From the NCBI GenBank assembly GCA_000403275.2, contig KE159599.1, forward strand, positions 1,134,137 through 1,198,136: DNA of 64,000 nt, in the 5' to 3' direction. Every line of letters starts with the position of its first letter. The stretch's first letter is position 1. The translations under genes were made by a program, and so were the position numbers. The notes under the pieces were generated by a model. The model did not search any database. It had not been told where the DNA came from and was given only the letters and a program-made list of their open reading frames with translations. Below, one piece after another: positions 845 to 11,612 of the stretch. The DNA is from Lachnospiraceae bacterium 28-4 (GTDB taxonomy: Bacteria > Bacillota > Clostridia > Lachnospirales > Lachnospiraceae).

Positions 845-984
845 AATTGGAACCCCCTTCCCATAACGTGTTTTTTATTATAACATATCGGCTTCTTCCG
901 CACTACTTTTTTTATTTTTAATGTCCGCCGTACCTGCCAGCCCATCCCTTGCCTTCCAACAGTAACTATTCCCGTTCCTCTTTC

Positions 985-1012
985 ATATTTATATCATATA
1001 ATCGGCATAGAG
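985..1012 (+). promoter_or_regulatory. Candidate sporulation (SigE-like) promoter
   Basis: ATATT at 985-989 and CATAGAGG at 1006-1013 are separated by 16 bases and resemble the mother-cell SigE pattern (ATATT, about 15 bases, CATACANT). They lie about 85 bases ahead of the cortex-lytic start codon. The match is partial, so this is inference. The rest of 845-1096 shows only the ribosome binding site AAAAGGAG near 1080. Confidence 0.3.
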
Positions 1013-1096: not shown

Positions 1097-1783
1097 ATGG
1101 CTATCGGTTATCTAACCATACAGACACGGACAGCCCAGGATGCCGTTCCATTAAGCGGTGTACAAATCCGCATCATGGACAACCAGGGAAATCCTGTCTA
1201 CTCTCTGACAACGGATGAAAACGGTGAAACACAAAAGGTTCCCCTGGAAACGGTCAGCAAAAGTTTTTCCCAGAATCCATATTATACGGGAACGCCGTAC
1301 AACAGCTATTCCGTTCTTGCCCGGGCGGCAGGTTTCAATTCCCTTTATGTTTCGGATATCCCTATATTTGAGGAAGAAACAGCCATTCTTCCGATCGCCC
1401 TTATACCGATGCAGGAGTCTCAACGCAGCCCCATACAGGCCGAGATTTCTATCGGGAAACCAGCGGTCGCCATGCAGACCCAGCGCCAGCAGGAAGGAAC
1501 GGTAGCAGAACCCTATGTGCTGCGGCAAGTGGTTATTCCCAATCCTATTACTGTCCATCTCGGCCCGCCAAGCGCATCCGCTTCCAATGTCCAGGTTTCG
1601 TTTCCTGATTATGTAAAAAATGTAGCCAGCAGCGAAATCTATCCTACCTGGCCGGAAGCCTCTCTGAGAGCTAACATTTACGCCATTATTACGTTCGCGC
1701 TGAACAGGGTCTATACGGAATGGTGGGGAAACCACCGCCCGTATCATACAAACTCCTTTCCATTAACTCTTTTCCCGCCATAG
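1097..1783 (+). CDS. SleC/SpoIID-like spore cortex-lytic protein, 5' segment of a split gene
   Basis: N-terminal segment of a clostridial SleC-type protein that degrades spore cortex peptidoglycan at germination. It has an N-terminal beta-sandwich-like region (residues 1-100, with GVQIRIMD and a DENGET turn), a linker, then the conserved start of the SpoIID-like domain (FPDYVKNVASSEIYPTWPE and ANIYAIITFALNRVYTEW). Homology stops abruptly after codon 209. The last 19 residues to the stop at 1783 are out-of-family sequence read from the inserted element. The missing part resumes at 3626. The start ATG has an AAAAGGAG site 9-10 bases upstream. As the DNA stands, only a truncated and probably inactive product is made; the full enzyme needs excision of 1725-3625. 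Confidence 0.88.
   Translation: MAIGYLTIQTRTAQDAVPLSGVQIRIMDNQGNPVYSLTTDENGETQKVPLETVSKSFSQNPYYTGTPYNSYSVLARAAGFNSLYVSDIPIFEEETAILPIALIPMQESQRSPIQAEISIGKPAVAMQTQRQQEGTVAEPYVLRQVVIPNPITVHLGPPSASASNVQVSFPDYVKNVASSEIYPTWPEASLRANIYAIITFALNRVYTEWWGNHRPYHTNSFPLTLFPP
1711..1738 (+). other. attL of the intervening element
   Basis: Left junction. Host coding sequence ends at ACGGAATG and the inferred crossover dinucleotide GT is at 1723-1724. Element sequence (GGGGAAACC) follows. Placement rests on where protein homology stops and on which join restores the frame. Confidence 0.75.
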
Positions 1784-1824
1784 CTTACCCATTTCCCGCA
1801 TCTTCCGAATGCAATTTCCATTCC

Positions 1825-1839
1825 CTGCATAAAATGCAG
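1825..1839. repeat. Perfect short inverted repeat ahead of the recombinase operon
   Basis: CTGCAT and ATGCAG (1825-1830, 1834-1839) are separated by AAA. The repeat lies about 30 bases before the 51-codon ORF. It overlaps a CATAAAAT string that weakly resembles a SigE or SigK -10 box, but no convincing -35 is seen. It could be an operator or an accessory recombinase site. Confidence 0.4.
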
Positions 1840-1868
1840 TAAATAATAGAAAAACCAAAGGACAGCAT

Positions 1869-2024
1869 ATGTTCTCACAATCATTTATCTATCCATTCCA
1901 AAACCAAGAAGTTAGGGTCACTATCCAATCCCCCAAACAGCCAAACCCCAAAAATGAACAAGATCTGATCCGGTACCTGAAAGAAATTTACCTGCAAAAA
2001 ACAGAGGAAAATTTCCATGCGTAA
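1869..2024 (+). CDS. Small 51-aa protein, candidate recombination directionality factor
   Basis: ATG at 1869 follows an AAAGGA ribosome binding site with a 6-base gap. The reading frame ends at TAA 2022-2024, overlapping the recombinase start (ATG 2017) by 8 bases, so the two are probably translationally coupled. The product is 51 residues, starts MFSQSFIYPF, has a proline/asparagine-rich middle and a charged C-terminal helix (QDLIRYLKEIYLQKTEE). I do not recognise a family. Large serine recombinases need a small directionality factor to excise, for example SprB of SPbeta. This is the only other ORF in the element and so the natural candidate. That role is inference. Confidence 0.55.
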   Translation: MFSQSFIYPFQNQEVRVTIQSPKQPNPKNEQDLIRYLKEIYLQKTEENFHA

Positions 2025-3612
2025 AAAAGTAAGAACTCTCTTAAGAGTATCTTCCAGGCAGCAGCTTCGCGATAACGATATTCCCATCCAAAGAGCGGAA
2101 GCGGAGCAATATATTTTAAGCCGCCCCGACTGGCAATTCGACAAAGAATATATGGAAAAAGCCGTATCCGCTTATAAAAACGGCGTGGAAGACCGGAAAG
2201 TCCTTCAGGATATCATGGCCGATGCACAGAAACATGAGTTTGACGTGCTGCTCACTTATATGTCCGACCGAATCGGCAGACAGGAGGAATACAGCTTTTA
2301 CGTAGCAGCCCTGAACAAACTTGGCATCGAGGTATGGACGATCAAAGACGGCCAGTTGAAAACCGGCGACCACGTCGATAAACTGCTCAACTACATACGC
2401 TTCTGGCAAAACGAAGGAGAAAGCAAAAAAACCGGCATGCGGGTACGGGATCATCAGATTGAGCTGGTAAAATCAGGAAAATTTGTAGGCGGCAAAGCCC
2501 CCTTTGGCTACCGGCTGATTCCATCCGGCATCATCAGCAGCCATGGCAGAGCATTGAAAAAGCTGGAAATTGTGGAAAAGGACGCCGAAATCGTCAGAAA
2601 AATATACTTTTTAGCAACTCATTGCGGCATGGGCTATGGAAAAATTGCAAATGCCCTGAACGAAGACGGGATACCCGCCATTCTCGCAACCCAATGGAAA
2701 CCTTCCACTATAGCCAGTATCTTGAAAAATCCGATTTATATGGGATACTATGCCTTGAACCGCAGAGTCAATCACGGCAGTTTTACGAGATTGGACCGCA
2801 AAGACTGGATCTATTCGAAAGAACAAATACCGGAATTGGTAATTATCCAAAAACAGGACTGGGAAAAAGCCCAGCAAATCCGGGAAGCCAGGAAGGCAAA
2901 GCTGCATTCCCATGCAGCAGGAACATCCTGCGACGCCCCTTTTTCCTTTCCCCTCCGCACCTCTGGCAGACTCGCCTTAATAGGACTGGCCTATTGCGGT
3001 TACTGCGGGAGCAAATTAAAAAACGGAAGCTATTATCAACACCGAACCGGAAAACCGTGCCAGGAGCAGCCCGCTTTTACCGGAAGATACCTCTGTCCCC
3101 AAAAATGCCCGGCCCGTTCCTGCTACTCCCAGAACTATCTGGAAAGCGCCGTCTTCTGGGCCGCAGAGCAGATTCTGGAACAAATACAAAGCATAGATAT
3201 TTCGGAAGATCTGCATCAAATATATGTACAAAAGCAAAAAAAGCTGCGCCAGGAAGCGGATATGCTTCAAAAAAAGAAGCAGCAGCTCCGGCTCGACATA
3301 TCCTCCCTGGAGGAAAAAATACCCGAAGCTATTCGAGGAGACTACTTTTTCAGTGCGGAAAAGCTATCCTCCATATTGTCAGAAAAAGAACTGTCTTTTT
3401 CCGCTTTACAGGAACAGGAACGATCATTGCTCGCCGAACTCCGCCGGGCAGAACGTGAGCAAAGCGAACAAACACCAAAGGAACCATATCTTCCCGACTG
3501 GAAAAAAGAATTTCAAAACAGTGATACCGCAGCAAAACAAATGCTCTTATTTCACCTGATAGAAAAAATTATAGTAAAAGATAACGATATTACCATAAAC
3601 TTGAAAATTTGA
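2017..3612 (+). CDS. Large serine recombinase of the intervening element
   Basis: A 531-aa large serine site-specific recombinase, the probable excisionase of the element. Resolvase domain at residues 1-150: the LRVSS motif places the catalytic serine at S12, and YMSDRIGR near 81-88 supplies the usual active-site arginines. The recombinase domain follows (GKFVGGKAPFGYR near 155, then NPIYMGYY). A zinc-ribbon starts at C327/C330, a coiled-coil spans roughly 390-490, and a hydrophobic C-terminal segment ends it. Size and domain order match SpoIVCA-type skin recombinases and phage integrases. The stop codon is 11 bases from the attR crossover, so the element has almost no spare DNA. No promoter is obvious; expression may depend on the host gene promoter or an undetected sporulation promoter. 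Confidence 0.93.
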   Translation: MRKKVRTLLRVSSRQQLRDNDIPIQRAEAEQYILSRPDWQFDKEYMEKAVSAYKNGVEDRKVLQDIMADAQKHEFDVLLTYMSDRIGRQEEYSFYVAALNKLGIEVWTIKDGQLKTGDHVDKLLNYIRFWQNEGESKKTGMRVRDHQIELVKSGKFVGGKAPFGYRLIPSGIISSHGRALKKLEIVEKDAEIVRKIYFLATHCGMGYGKIANALNEDGIPAILATQWKPSTIASILKNPIYMGYYALNRRVNHGSFTRLDRKDWIYSKEQIPELVIIQKQDWEKAQQIREARKAKLHSHAAGTSCDAPFSFPLRTSGRLALIGLAYCGYCGSKLKNGSYYQHRTGKPCQEQPAFTGRYLCPQKCPARSCYSQNYLESAVFWAAEQILEQIQSIDISEDLHQIYVQKQKKLRQEADMLQKKKQQLRLDISSLEEKIPEAIRGDYFFSAEKLSSILSEKELSFSALQEQERSLLAELRRAEREQSEQTPKEPYLPDWKKEFQNSDTAAKQMLLFHLIEKIIVKDNDITINLKI

Positions 3613-3640
3613 TTGATTCCGCCGTACCGGAACCAAGGCT
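3611..3640 (+). other. attR of the intervening element
   Basis: Right junction, with inferred crossover GT at 3624-3625. Host frame resumes with AC CGG AAC CAA GGC (Y-R-N-Q-G). Reading the circle junction outward from the GT, the arms CCGCCTT and GGGGAAA pair at 5 of 7 positions, consistent with a serine integrase attP. Confidence 0.7.
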
Positions 3641-4815
3641 ATAGTTTTGATATTACCAACAGCACCGCCTACGACCAATATTTCATCTATGGACGTCCCA
3701 TTTACGAATCCATCAGCAGGGTCGTAGACGATATTTTCAACGAATACGTGCGCCGCCAGGGGCAGCTCGCCCCCTATTTCACTTCCTTCTGCAATGGAAC
3801 CACCGTTTCCTGCCAGGGCATGTCCCAATGGGGCACGGTTACTCTGGCAGACCGGGGGTACACACCTTTGCAGATCCTGCGTTCCTATTACCCCAACGAT
3901 ATAGAAATCGTGCAAACCGATATCATTACCAACGTTCTCTCGTCCTATCCCGGAACGCCTCTCAAACAGGGAAGCAGCGGTCTTGATGTACAGACCATCC
4001 AAACATGGCTCAACCGGATCCGGCGTAACTATCCGGCTATCCCTTCCATTACCGATCCCGCTGGAACCTTTGGAAGCAGTACCAAAGCGGCGGTTACAAA
4101 ATTCCAAAGCGTCTTTAATCTGACACCCGACGGTATTGTTGGAAAATCGACCTGGTATAAGATATCCCGCCTTTATGCTGCAGTTACCCGGCTGGCGGAA
4201 CTGGACAGCGAGGGAACGACTCTCGGAATCGGAACCGTTCCCCCAAACTCCGTACTCCGCCAGGGATCCCGGGGTCCTGACGTCATTACCCTGCAATACC
4301 TTCTGGATGTCATATCCGAATACTATCCGGGCATCCCCGCCCCTGCCCAGGACGGCATCTTCGGCAGCGGAACGCGCCAGGCAGTTATCGCCTTCCAGCA
4401 GATCATGGGATTGCAGCCGGACGGCATTGTAGGGAATCTCACATGGAAAGCCCTCTATGATGCCTATCTCGGAATCAATCAGAACATTCCTCCGCAAAAA
4501 CCGGAGGGCGGAGCCGACACCTATGTTGTCCGGGCCGGCGACTCTCTCTGGCTCATTGCCCAGCGGTACAATACCACGGTGGATGCTATTAAACGACTGA
4601 ACGGACTGACCAGCGACTTGATCAACGTAGGCCAGGTATTGAAAATACCCGCTTCCCAGGAGGCGTCCTATATCGAATACACCGTCCGTCCCGGAGATAC
4701 TCTCTGGCTGCTCTCCAGGCGCTACAATACCACGGTGGATGCCATCAAAAAAGCCAGCGGGCTGACCAGCGATCTGCTGAGCATCGGGCAGATATTGAAA
4801 ATACCGGCAAGATAA
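3626..4815 (+). CDS. SleC/SpoIID-like spore cortex-lytic protein, 3' segment of the split gene
   Basis: The C-terminal 396 codons of the split gene. It completes the SpoIID-like domain (GYSFDITNSTAYDQYF, then CNGTTVSCQGMSQWGT and ILRSYYPNDIEIV), a fold known from lytic transglycosylases. It continues with two peptidoglycan-binding repeats (LKQGSSGLDVQTIQTWLN and LRQGSRGPDVITLQYLLD, each closing with DGIVG) and two LysM modules at the end (YVVRAGDSLWLIAQRYNTT, YTVRPGDTLWLLSRRYNTT). No good start codon or ribosome binding site precedes it; a TTG at 3613 opens the frame but is unlikely to be used. The segment is therefore probably silent until the element is excised and it joins codon 209 of the upstream part. 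Confidence 0.9.
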
Positions 4816-7770: not shown

Positions 7771-9591
7771 TTACAGCTGGAACTTACTTCCCTGCTCATT
7801 CAGAAGATGGCTTAATTTTACCAGCCCTTCCGTATCTTCGGTACATTCGCCCAACGTCTGGGAAAGAAGCGTCATGCTGGCGCTCGTTTCTTCCGTAGAA
7901 GCCGCGTTTTCCTGCACTACGCTCGCCAGGCTGTTGACAGAATCCGTAACAATCTGTTTCAAAGAACCAAGAATCTCCGTCTGGCTTCCGATTTCTTTCG
8001 TCACCTCTTCCACCATAGCCACTTCTTTATTCAAATGCCCAAACGCTTCCCGCGTCTCATTCAGGCGGTTTTGCTGGTTTTGCACGTTGCGCGTTACTTC
8101 CTCCATCTTAGCCACGGAAACCTCTACATTGCCGACCAGTTCTTTTACAATGCTTTCTATTTCCTTGGCGTTGCCCGAAGACTCTTCGGACAGGTTCCTG
8201 ATCTCTTCGGCCACAACGGCAAAGCCCTTTCCTGCCTCTCCGGCCCTGGCCGCTTCTATGCTGGCATTCAGCGAAAGCAGATTGGTCTGGTTCGCCAGCC
8301 CTTTGATGATTTCGATCGCCTTGGTAATATTTGCAGCAGAATCATTATTTTTGTTCGTCTGCTTGGATACTACCTCGATCGCCTCGATCGTCACTTTTGT
8401 GATCTCATCCAGCTCCTTAATGCTTTCGGAAGCCTCTGTGGAATGCTGCATCATAGCGGATACCGCTTCTCCAAGTTTATTTACACCGTTCTTTTCCACT
8501 TCAATGACGCTGCCAAGCTCCACAATCTTCTCATTCACTGTCTCCGTCTCGTTGGCCTGGTTGGTAGCTCCCTGCGCCAGATCATCGATAGCCTGGTTGG
8601 TATTTCGAATGCTGTCCGAAATATATCCGAACTTCTCGCTGAACTTTTCACTGCTCTGGTTCAAGCTTTCTCCCGTATGGATAACGCTGCCCAGCATATT
8701 TGCCAATGATTGGCGGACATTTTCCAGCGAACGCGCCATCCCGCCGATCTCATCGCCTCGTTTCAATAAAGCAGGACTGACCGTAAAACTCAAATCTCCC
8801 ATAGCCGACTGGCGAAGATGGCCCTCCACCAGTTTAATGCCCTTCGTGATCCGCATACCGCTCCACGTAGAAATCGCAAAAGCCGCAATCAGCATCACCA
8901 GCGCAGTAACGCCATACATCATAAGCATACCGGAAAACTGCTCCTCGATATATACCTTCCTGCCGTCAATCTTTTCATTCATCTCATCCACATAATTCCC
9001 GGTAGCCACCGCCCATCCCCAGGGCTCAAACAATTCGCAGTAGGCGATCTTAGGCGCAACCGTAACACCGTCCGACTTCGTAAAGTAAAACTCGTTATAC
9101 CCGCCTCCGGCCTTTGCCGTTGCCACGATATTCTGTGTCACCTTCACACCATTCTGATCCGTCAGGTCATATCTGTCATCCCCTTCCTGATCCGTCAAAA
9201 TCGGATGTTCGACCAGTATATAATCCGTTCTGTCTATCCATATGTACCCGGATGCATCATCCCTGTAACGCATAGCCCGAACCGCATCCGCCGCCATCTT
9301 CTGTGCCTCTTCTTCCGTCAGTTCTCCGCTCTGGCTCCGGTCATAATAGCTCCGTATCACGGAAAGCGCCGACTGAACCTGCGATTTAATCTCCATCGAA
9401 TATCCATCTGTCATAGATTCTTCATACAACTCCATGGACTCGTTCATTGACTTACTCAGATCAAAAACACCCAGACATGCCAATCCGATCGTAGGAATAG
9501 CAACCATAACGCAGATAATTAAAATCAGCATAACCGTCAGGCTCCGAAATCCACTTGTCTTCTGTGTGCCAGCAACTGTTTTTTCTTTCAT
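7771..9591 (-). CDS. Methyl-accepting chemotaxis protein with single-Cache sensor
   Basis: A 606-aa membrane chemoreceptor. N-terminal membrane segment at about 19-40, then an extracellular sCache-2-type sensor ([29 protein letters not shown]), a second membrane segment near 215-237 and a HAMP linker ([15 protein letters not shown]). The cytoplasmic coiled-coil ends in the kinase-control hairpin [20 protein letters not shown] and [19 protein letters not shown], which contact CheA and CheW. Cache_2 sensors typically bind small carboxylates; the ligand here is unknown. No chemotaxis or flagellar genes are nearby, so it is an orphan receptor. It is preceded by a GGTGG(G) site before the ATG at 9591. 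Confidence 0.95.
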
Positions 9592-9648
9592 GTAACCCCA
9601 CCTTCCAAATTTTTATTTCCGATGTTTCCTTATATGGATTCAGATACG

Positions 9649-9699
9649 AAAAGCCCTTTTTATGGATGCTGACAGACCGCATCCATAAAAAGGGCTTTT
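9649..9699. terminator. Strong hairpin terminator
   Basis: Perfect 20-bp arms (9649-9668 and 9680-9699, AAAAGCCCTTTT... pairing with ...AAAAGGGCTTTT) around an 11-base loop. It separates the nuclease pseudogene (stop 9789) from the chemoreceptor start and can work in both directions. Confidence 0.85.
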
Positions 9700-9788
9700 G
9701 ATACTTGAATCTCATACATACTAATTTTATTATACACCTTTTACCATTGAAGTCAATAAATCGGAAACAAAAAAATGGTAAATTCGTA

Positions 9789-11612
9789 CTATTCTTCATC
9801 TTCCTCATCAAAGCCGCCCACTAATAGCCAGCCGCTTTTATCCTTTAAATAGAGCTGTCCCGTTCCCCATCCTATTCCGTCTCCGCAAAAAACAGCACAG
9901 TCCGGGCACATAATCCCCCAGGCAGATGTCCCCTTTATGCTGCCATCGACCATATATTTTCCATCCGCCAGTAAGCATCCGCACAAATCACATTCCGGCG
10001 AGGCTCCTATATAATATTCCTTCAATCTCTTTCCTTTACTGGTATCCGCAATCTGATCCAAAATCCGTTCGGCCGAACTGCCATCCATAATGCCGTTATT
10101 ATCTCTTGGCAATATTTTACGGACAATTTGCCTTACCAACTTCTCATTCTTTTCAAGATATTCCCGATACATATTTATCGGATCATTCGGCTCGCATACC
10201 CTCCATCTTTCATCCTTCCATGCGAAGAATGAACGTTCTTCCTCTTGCATATCACAGCGGAATGTACGGTACGCGCAGCCCAGATCCTCCGCAATATCCA
10301 CATCCCGTTCATCCCGCCCTCCCCAAGTCATACTCATTAATAATGCGCTAAGGCTGCCCTCATAGTATTTATCGAGGATTTCCCGGAATGGCAGGGACTG
10401 CCCGATATCCTGAAGTCCGCCATAATACACTCGAACCGGCTCCGGGTCATGGACTGTTAAATAATAAGACGGTATATACAGAATTCCGTTTTCCTTCGAG
10501 ACTGTTAAATATATTGTAAAAACTCCGGTAGCAGGATTATACACCGATATTTCAATCTTTGCTGTCGGAAATTCCTCCTCAATTTCATCCAGACATCTTA
10601 AAATATGGTTTCTCCAAACCGCATTTTCCGAAAGCGTCTCTTTCACTTCGTTGCGAAGCGATTCCATATGAACCCGATTACACACATCCGCTGTCTTTTT
10701 CAGCCTCTGTCCCGTCGACCCGTCTTCCGCAAAAAGTTCGGAAATGATCGTCGCATCCGATAATAAATTATTTTTTTCAAAAATCCCGTACCGCCGTATC
10801 TCCTGGATGGTATGTCCCGTATCTTCTATAAAATCATGGATCTTTGCCGGATATCCAATTTCATAAAAATCCTGATAAAAAGATGGCTGTAGCGCCACTA
10901 CGGATTCATGGAGATAACAGAGCGCCTCTCTTTCCTCCATATCCGAAATTATTTCCTGTCCTTCCCTATATTGTTCTTTGTCCGAAGATAAAATATCCAG
11001 GCACTTCTCTTTTGACAAAGTCTGCATCGCAAAATATGCCACGAATTCATAAACCGGCAATTCCACATCCGCTTTTACCTTCATCCCATTCTGACTGGCC
11101 ATTTGCATAATTGCCTCTTTCATTTCGGCTTCTTTTTTTGAAGTGACCGGATGAGCCAATCGGATTATCATAATGATAAAATCATCAATGCCTTTGGCTT
11201 TGCACGATTGTTCCATCGATTGAATGCCTTTCTGCAAGGCATCTTCATTCAAGTACCAACACATAGCATGCCATGGCGCTATGAACCGGCCATTCGTTAT
11301 AGGAAGGACGGCCACCGGAAAGGTATTGATCCCTGCCGGACTGGCCATTTCAATCTGCAAGCCTTTTACATCCCACTTTGTATCACAAACAAACCGGGAA
11401 AAAGGAACGATCAGTTCTTTCCAATCTGTCGAAGCCACAATCACCCTGATTTCATGATCCCTTGCCCCTAAATATGATTTCACGCCTTCTACATATTTAA
11501 ACACTTCGTGTATGGCCTCTCTGGCAGATGCATCGCTTTTTTTTAATTCAATAATCACATGGTTCCCTTTTTCATCTTTTGCATATAAATCAATAAACCC
11601 CTTTGTTCCTAA
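9789..11612 (-). pseudogene. NucS-like nuclease gene, C-terminal part (interrupted by IS110)
   Basis: Residues 34 to 640 of a protein that opens with an EndoMS/NucS-like nuclease domain: GTKGFIDLYAKDEKGNHVIIELKK carries the D...ExK catalytic signature, followed by AIHEVFKYVEGVKSYLG and IRVIVASTDW. The remaining ~450 residues are unfamiliar and end with a zinc-binding block (CDLCGCLL, MCPDCAVFCGDG). The N-terminal 33 codons lie at 13214-13312, beyond an IS110 element. A GTG at 11630 inside the IS end could start this frame but is an accident of the insertion. Joining both parts at the shared TAA gives YIPNSLGTKGF, the normal family sequence, so the break is recent and clean. Confidence 0.85.

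Follow-up and report, generated by a model that had tools for sequence, protein, structure and literature searches.

A two-gene serine-recombinase element splits a SleC-type gene at a conserved codon in Lachnospiraceae bacterium 28-4 and is likely excised during sporulation

Organization of the split SleC-type gene

The window is a stretch of 64,000 nucleotides from Lachnospiraceae bacterium 28-4 (assembly GCA_000403275.2, contig KE159599.1, positions 1,134,137 to 1,198,136 of the forward strand). Near its start, a spore cortex-lytic enzyme gene of the SleC type is interrupted by a 1.9-kb element with a large serine recombinase. The initial annotation had described such an element, and the sequence, the open reading frames (ORFs) and the domain matches (PF07508 and PF00239) agreed with it. 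The N-terminal half of the gene, a 51-amino-acid (aa) ORF, the recombinase and the C-terminal half frame follow one another on the same strand (Table 1). The cargo of the element consists of the recombinase and the 51-aa ORF, which overlaps the recombinase start and goes beyond the initial annotation.

Comparison with uninterrupted orthologues placed both ends of the element at a common GT, the left end reading ACGGAATG-GT-GGGG and the right end GATTCCGCC-GT-ACCGG. A crossover at this GT takes out 1,901 bp and joins 209 and 396 codons into one frame of 605 codons, which runs through TEW and YRNQGYSFDITNS; the 605-aa frame proposed earlier was thus recovered. The cut position lies in a TEWYRN motif, with the same residues in the solved SleC structure, inside the catalytic domain. 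The element splits the SpoIID-like region, and each half alone stayed under the Pfam cut-off. Location inside a sporulation gene, a serine recombinase, a short common core and a restored frame together give the skin-like anatomy that had been claimed. Inverted repeats of attP were evident by eye in some relatives (e.g., L181 and L186); pairing arm positions numbered 11 of 26 in the window element and 8–14 of 26 in five others.

Residues 4–405 of an uninterrupted orthologue of the window gene (L047) matched the solved 'Spore cortex-lytic enzyme pre-pro-form' (9h68) with E = 1e-72, and residues 20–420 of an uninterrupted orthologue of its paralogue (L065, the type without LysM) matched it with E = 8e-133. 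The window gene is a member of the SleC family, with homology spanning the whole pre-pro-enzyme, and its cortex-lytic activity is predicted, in line with the first assignment.

Table 1. Positions of the split gene, the element and the predicted promoters in the window
Feature	Position	Strand	Basis or remark
Predicted sigma-K-type promoter of SleC gene	965..993	+	AC (965-966), 17-base spacer, CATATTTATA (984-993)
N-half ORF of SleC-type gene	1097-1783	+	Sequence, ORF list
N-terminal half to crossover	1097..1723	+	209 codons; open, purifying selection in split relatives
attL core GT, left end of element	1723..1724	+	Comparison with uninterrupted orthologues
Intervening element, 1,901 bp	1724..3624	+	Junctions against uninterrupted orthologues
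Predicted sigma-E-type promoter of small ORF and recombinase	1807..1835	+	GAATG (1807-1811), 16-base spacer, CATAAAAT (1828-1835)
51-aa ORF, candidate recombination directionality factor	1869..2024	+	8-base overlap with recombinase start; place, size
Large serine recombinase, 531 aa	2017..3612	+	PF00239, PF07508 above cut-off
C-half frame of SleC-type gene	3613-4815	+	ORF list
attR core GT, right end of element	3624..3625	+	Comparison with uninterrupted orthologues
C-terminal half from crossover	3625..4815	+	396 codons and stop; rest of catalytic domain, 2 PG_binding_1, 2 LysM

Recombinase and small ORF

The Resolvase (PF00239) and Recombinase (PF07508) domains scored 59.1 and 71.3 bits, over the Pfam cut-offs. 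The zinc ribbon (PF13408) scored 16.0 bits, below its cut-off of 25.3; the cysteines of its CGYCG motif were invariant in 18 aligned relatives, as was the serine of LLRVSS (18/18). A phage origin and a plasmid origin were both considered and rejected, since the recombinase had only distant counterparts among 50,697 phage records (3 at E ≤ 1e-30, the best with about 31% identity) and 72,556 plasmid records (1, with 29.5% identity).

Kin of the 51-aa ORF were found upstream of the recombinase at 34 other loci of 83 (tblastn E < 0.2; 29 of these at E < 0.01), and the common core of their alignment was VxVTxEFPEQxDxxAExEFxGRLKEIYL. At many loci without such kin, another small ORF stood at that place. 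From its position and size, the 51-aa protein is a putative directionality factor.

Comparison within the genus

Sixteen genomes of the genus were compared, with the genome of the window designated as G000, its SleC-type gene as gene A and the paralogue as gene B. Gene A was present in ten. In six of them (G004, G005, G008, G012, G013 and G014) it was uninterrupted at this codon, and these orthologues, which the initial annotation had suggested looking for, show the empty site. The gene was split in G000, G009, G015 and G003, the contig of G003 stopping ahead of the C-half. The four gene-A elements grouped as a single clade (100% support), consistent with an old insertion that was inherited along with the gene.

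Gene B was uninterrupted in G001, G002, G005, G006, G007, G010 and G011 and was cut at the same codon in the nine other genomes. The halves lay on a single contig in G000, G008 and G012 and on two contigs in G014; in G003, G004, G009, G013 and G015 one half was found, at a contig end. The window's genome therefore has a second split SleC-type gene, which had not been described. Both of its SleC-type genes are split, yet a single recombinase of this family was found in it. One recombinase at E ≤ 1e-20 was found in each genome with a split gene A; in three of the four the gene-B element leaves the contig and may hide another recombinase, and only G000 is clean in this respect. The gene-A and gene-B elements of G000 had 13 bases in common at their right ends, and their left ends were dissimilar. 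Another genus relative of the recombinase, on contig C10 of G012 (30% identity), was not at sleC.

Gene B of G000 (L043, G000 C2:124000-140000; 8920-10281, minus strand) is split by a 1.36-kb element without a recombinase. This element has a 397-aa ORF for a repeat protein that is predicted to be exported and matched no Pfam family. Related proteins were found in the gene-B elements of three other genomes (G003, G012 and G014), and a sigma-A-like sequence upstream of the ORF was also present in G014 and in G003.

Recurrence at the same codon in wider relatives

A family search of 397 genomes with the recombinase gave matches in 20 genomes at E ≤ 1e-50. Among 19 regions outside the genus, all ten with a recombinase identity of at least 35% were at sleC, and none of the nine with 33% or less. 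Genome contigs were also scanned with an alignment of 18 recombinases, SleC being absent from the query, and the best 80 of 159 relatives were kept, which represented 79 distinct loci. At 72 of these 79, the same SleC codon was cut (71 by tblastn of a SleC half ending or starting there, and L215 by eye); together with the six genus genomes in which gene A is uninterrupted, this puts the split beyond chance. The other seven loci (L205–L209, L212 and L216) formed a separate recombinase branch and lay elsewhere, beside a PG_binding_1 gene; L206 had restriction-modification-like ORFs upstream. Viral contigs held four recombinase loci, two of them at sleC. The named relatives were mostly uncultured Lachnospiraceae; carriers with isolate records include Lachnospiraceae bacterium A2, Lachnospiraceae bacterium 10-1 and Hespellia stercorisuis DSM 15480.

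The left junctions in relatives carried TGG at this codon in 56 of 57 cases, and the right junctions carried GTA(C/T) in 52 of 52. Both sleC halves were present within 36 loci, with a spacing of 1,959 to 15,544 bp, and the recombinase 3' end was at most 150 bp from a junction in 62 of 71. The orientation of the recombinase relative to sleC was the same in 42 loci and opposite in 31, though the core is the same GT, with at least 11 switches on the tree. Near this site, G207 has two SleC pieces (C1:226521-227728; query 20-238 and 234-421) that adjoin in different frames, as a frameshift, an error or an excision scar would leave them.

A second insertion site

In a family sample of 250 genomes, 160 of which had a SleC match, splits at this codon (site 1) were found in nine: G000, G042, G052, G113, G151, G169, G191, G206 and G222 (G169 called from the match end only; G222 also holding an intact copy). 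Splits at a second position, site 2, between CPNWMT and QWG, were found in up to 17 genomes, with both parts in eight, the left part only in eight and the right part only in G061; the calls for G057, G064, G229 and G061 came from match ends only. Seven genomes were contig breaks or ambiguous (G083, G085, G107, G138, G140, G195 and G207).

TGACC was present at both ends of site 2 in four of the six loci with both ends read, and L100 and L105 had a one-base difference at one end. The site-2 recombinases were 42–53% alike mutually and 23–30% against that of the window; they belong to a second, distant lineage. With two insertion sites, two recombinase lineages and two SleC paralogues, the phenomenon is wider than the initial annotation had it.

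At L220, L222, L229, L236 and L237, sleC was cut at site 1 and the next piece ended at the site-2 codon, that is, two elements in one gene; the third sleC piece of these five loci was not found in the retrieved DNA. A Spo0A_C domain (PF08769, 35.7 bits against a cut-off of 25) was found in a small gene of the site-2 element of L100 (G226 C28:28000-39000), and possibly links this element to sporulation control. Further ORFs between site-2 sleC pieces, judged from their translations, were a beta-glucosidase and a short-chain dehydrogenase in L102, an NYN-type protein in L103 and an amidase in L105.

Selection on the split genes

The N-halves were open up to the junction in all 57 cases, and 44 of 52 C-halves had full length. 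The eight others were L234, which leaves its contig, the five doubly cut loci, which stop at site 2, and L187 and L227, which appeared truncated. For gene A, the pairwise ratio of non-synonymous to synonymous divergence (dN/dS) of C-halves was 0.083 between split genes (3 pairs) and 0.073 between intact genes (12 of 15 pairs); for gene B, the two values were 0.029 (9 unsaturated pairs of 10) and 0.050 (10 of 21 pairs). These values are guides rather than tests, as pairs share sequences and the synonymous divergence (dS) is often close to saturation. The pair G000–G009, both split by kindred elements, had a dS of 0.76 and a dN/dS of 0.083. Constraint on the halves of split genes was like that on intact genes, which speaks against the split genes being dead.

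Predicted promoters

Sigma-E promoters are described as having ATA and sigma-K promoters AC at the -35 position, with similar -10 elements, and sleC of Clostridioides difficile as a member of the sigma-K regulon, transcribed only in the late mother cell (PMC3789822). Before sleC, AC-N16-CATANNNTA was found in 17 of 69 sequences and AC-N17 in 15 of 69, compared with 0–4 at 13 other spacings. Before the small ORF or recombinase, GAATA-N15-17-CATA was found at 24 of 83 loci (200 shuffles: mean 1.0, maximum 5) and ATA-N16-CATA at 42 of 83 (1–12 at 18 other spacings). In the four gene-A elements, CATAAAAT was invariant. The sigma-E-type motif at the element and the sigma-K-type motif at sleC suggest that excision comes first and transcription of the joined gene second. 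ATA-N15-17-CATA was present upstream of the recombinase in only two of six site-2 elements; therefore, this timing argument is kept to site-1 elements.

In 12 of the 16 genus genomes, GAATA-N16-CATA preceded spoIVA, which is transcribed under sigma-E; for the small acid-soluble spore protein (SASP) genes, which belong to sigma-G, the count was 0 of 15. A forespore-type promoter for the element was rejected on this count, which is weak evidence.

Discussion

The window contains a minimal skin-type element at a conserved SleC codon. During sporulation the element is likely removed from the mother-cell chromosome, and the joined gene would then give the 605-aa enzyme. Programmed excision in the mother cell is likely, and the selection on both halves and the two promoter classes fit it. 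Early in the mother cell, a sigma-E-type promoter would drive expression of the recombinase and of the 51-aa protein, which would act as the directionality factor. Recombination of attL with attR would free the element as a circle, and the joined sleC would then be transcribed from the sigma-K-type promoter. The forespore chromosome would retain the element and pass it on.

Several observations weigh against programmed excision. The joined site (allowing at most 2 mismatches) was absent from the genome's own assembly, and the circle junction of the window element was absent from viral contigs. The promoters are consensus matches in loci that are kin to each other, and 41 of the 83 elements lack ATA-N16-CATA. 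In the window, the sleC promoter has AC-N17-CATA without the strict -10 tail, and the -35 of the element (GAATG) is a single base off GAATA. About half of the recombinases (83 loci) had no tblastn kin of the 51-aa ORF upstream. The ORF is weakly constrained: relative to G009, 8 of its 51 codons have synonymous changes and 11 have non-synonymous changes. The truncated C-halves of L187 and L227, which have no site-2 cut, reflect decay, another insertion or an assembly error. The host genome has three SleB/CwlJ-type hydrolase genes besides its SleC-type genes, and with these the importance of SleC in this host may be limited; that germination is tied to a DNA rearrangement, as first claimed, is perhaps too strong for this host.

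Near-identical recombinases occurred in different hosts (L163, L164, L165 and L204; L219, L220 and L236), which points to recent spread, so that not all insertions are old. Together with the larger versions in the family, up to 15.5 kb and with other cargo, this spread would suit an ordinary mobile element, excised at random or on transfer and unrelated to sporulation, the constraint on the halves coming from frequent loss and regain in the population. We consider this unlikely, as the gene-A element was inherited as one clade in four species, the sigma-E- and sigma-K-type motifs stand at fixed spacings, and the recurrent target is described in C. difficile as a late-mother-cell gene (PMC3789822).

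A static insertion, with the element stuck and the SleC gene dead in these hosts, is quite improbable. The missing joined form, the other cortex hydrolases, the truncated L187 and L227 and the gene-B element without a recombinase would be expected under it; however, most split-gene C-halves are full length and constrained like intact genes, and the low dN/dS of the G000–G009 pair was found with both genes split. A two-piece enzyme, with each half translated on its own and the element left in place, is hardly credible: the C-half frame of the window has an in-frame TTG at 3613, shortly before the junction, and 38 of 52 C-halves have an in-frame start codon ahead of the junction, but the other 14 have none, the cut falls within the catalytic domain, and the tails appended to the N-halves vary among loci.

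Hosts of intervening elements described in print include sigK, spoVFB, spoVR, spsM, gerE and yabG (PMC5025042, PMC4191935, PMC10747680, PMC5595907). Among the papers listed by a full-text literature search, with most subscription papers outside its reach, none dealt with an interrupted sleC. The element appears to be new as to its host gene, as the initial annotation had proposed for a germination-lysin gene, while skin-type elements are already known.

The closest parallel described is the skin element in C. difficile sigK, with the recombinase CD1231 and the directionality factor CD1234; it likewise has a serine recombinase, a mother-cell sporulation gene as host and a small partner protein, which is controlled there by sigma-E and SpoIIID (PMC5025042). 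CD1234 is given as 72 aa with a pI of 5.5 (PMC5025042); a sentence in PMC10747680 on 72 and 53 aa can be read in reverse, and PMC5025042 was followed. As described there (PMC5025042), skin has a sigma-factor host and 19 genes, whereas the sleC element lies in a germination-enzyme gene and has 1.9 kb and two ORFs, overlapping as a single unit of recombinase and small ORF; its excision is predicted. The gin element in gerE of Bacillus cereus ATCC10987 is also not phage-like and has a serine recombinase, GirC, a partner, GirX, and an imperfect inverted repeat at att; unlike the sleC element, it is reported with 28.6 kb, three recombinases, a transcription-factor host and proven excision (PMC5595907). 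Similar to the sleC element, yin in yabG of one Clostridium botulinum isolate is described as a recombinase element in a sigma-K-class sporulation gene with a putative small directionality factor, but as prophage-like and in a single strain, whereas sleC elements occurred in dozens of genomes, the smallest with two ORFs (PMC10747680). SP-beta in spsM and vfbin and vrin in spoVFB and spoVR are reported to restore mother-cell genes through excision, as would be the case here, but are described as prophages or phage-derived and in other host genes (PMC4191935).

For G000, we propose that a single recombinase serves both SleC genes. In a broader and more tentative view, which we hold to be possible and no firmer than that, sleC in Lachnospiraceae and related bacteria would be a place where DNA able to excise itself settles permanently. 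At least two recombinase lineages would occupy two codons, in some cases within a single gene, and many species would make the enzyme only after excision in the mother cell; in the window host, the 531-aa recombinase would open its own SleC gene in cis and the paralogue in trans as one developmental switch.

If excision is as predicted, a germination effector would be added to the hosts of intervening elements, at two codons, with two recombinase lineages and in many gut bacteria. The natural series of empty site, site 1, site 2, both sites and an element without a recombinase makes it testable whether such elements serve the host or hide in a doomed mother cell. The recombinases, which have a fixed target in a coding sequence and a candidate partner protein, might also be of use as compact DNA tools. 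The findings suggest that broken-looking sleC genes of gut spore-formers may be functional.

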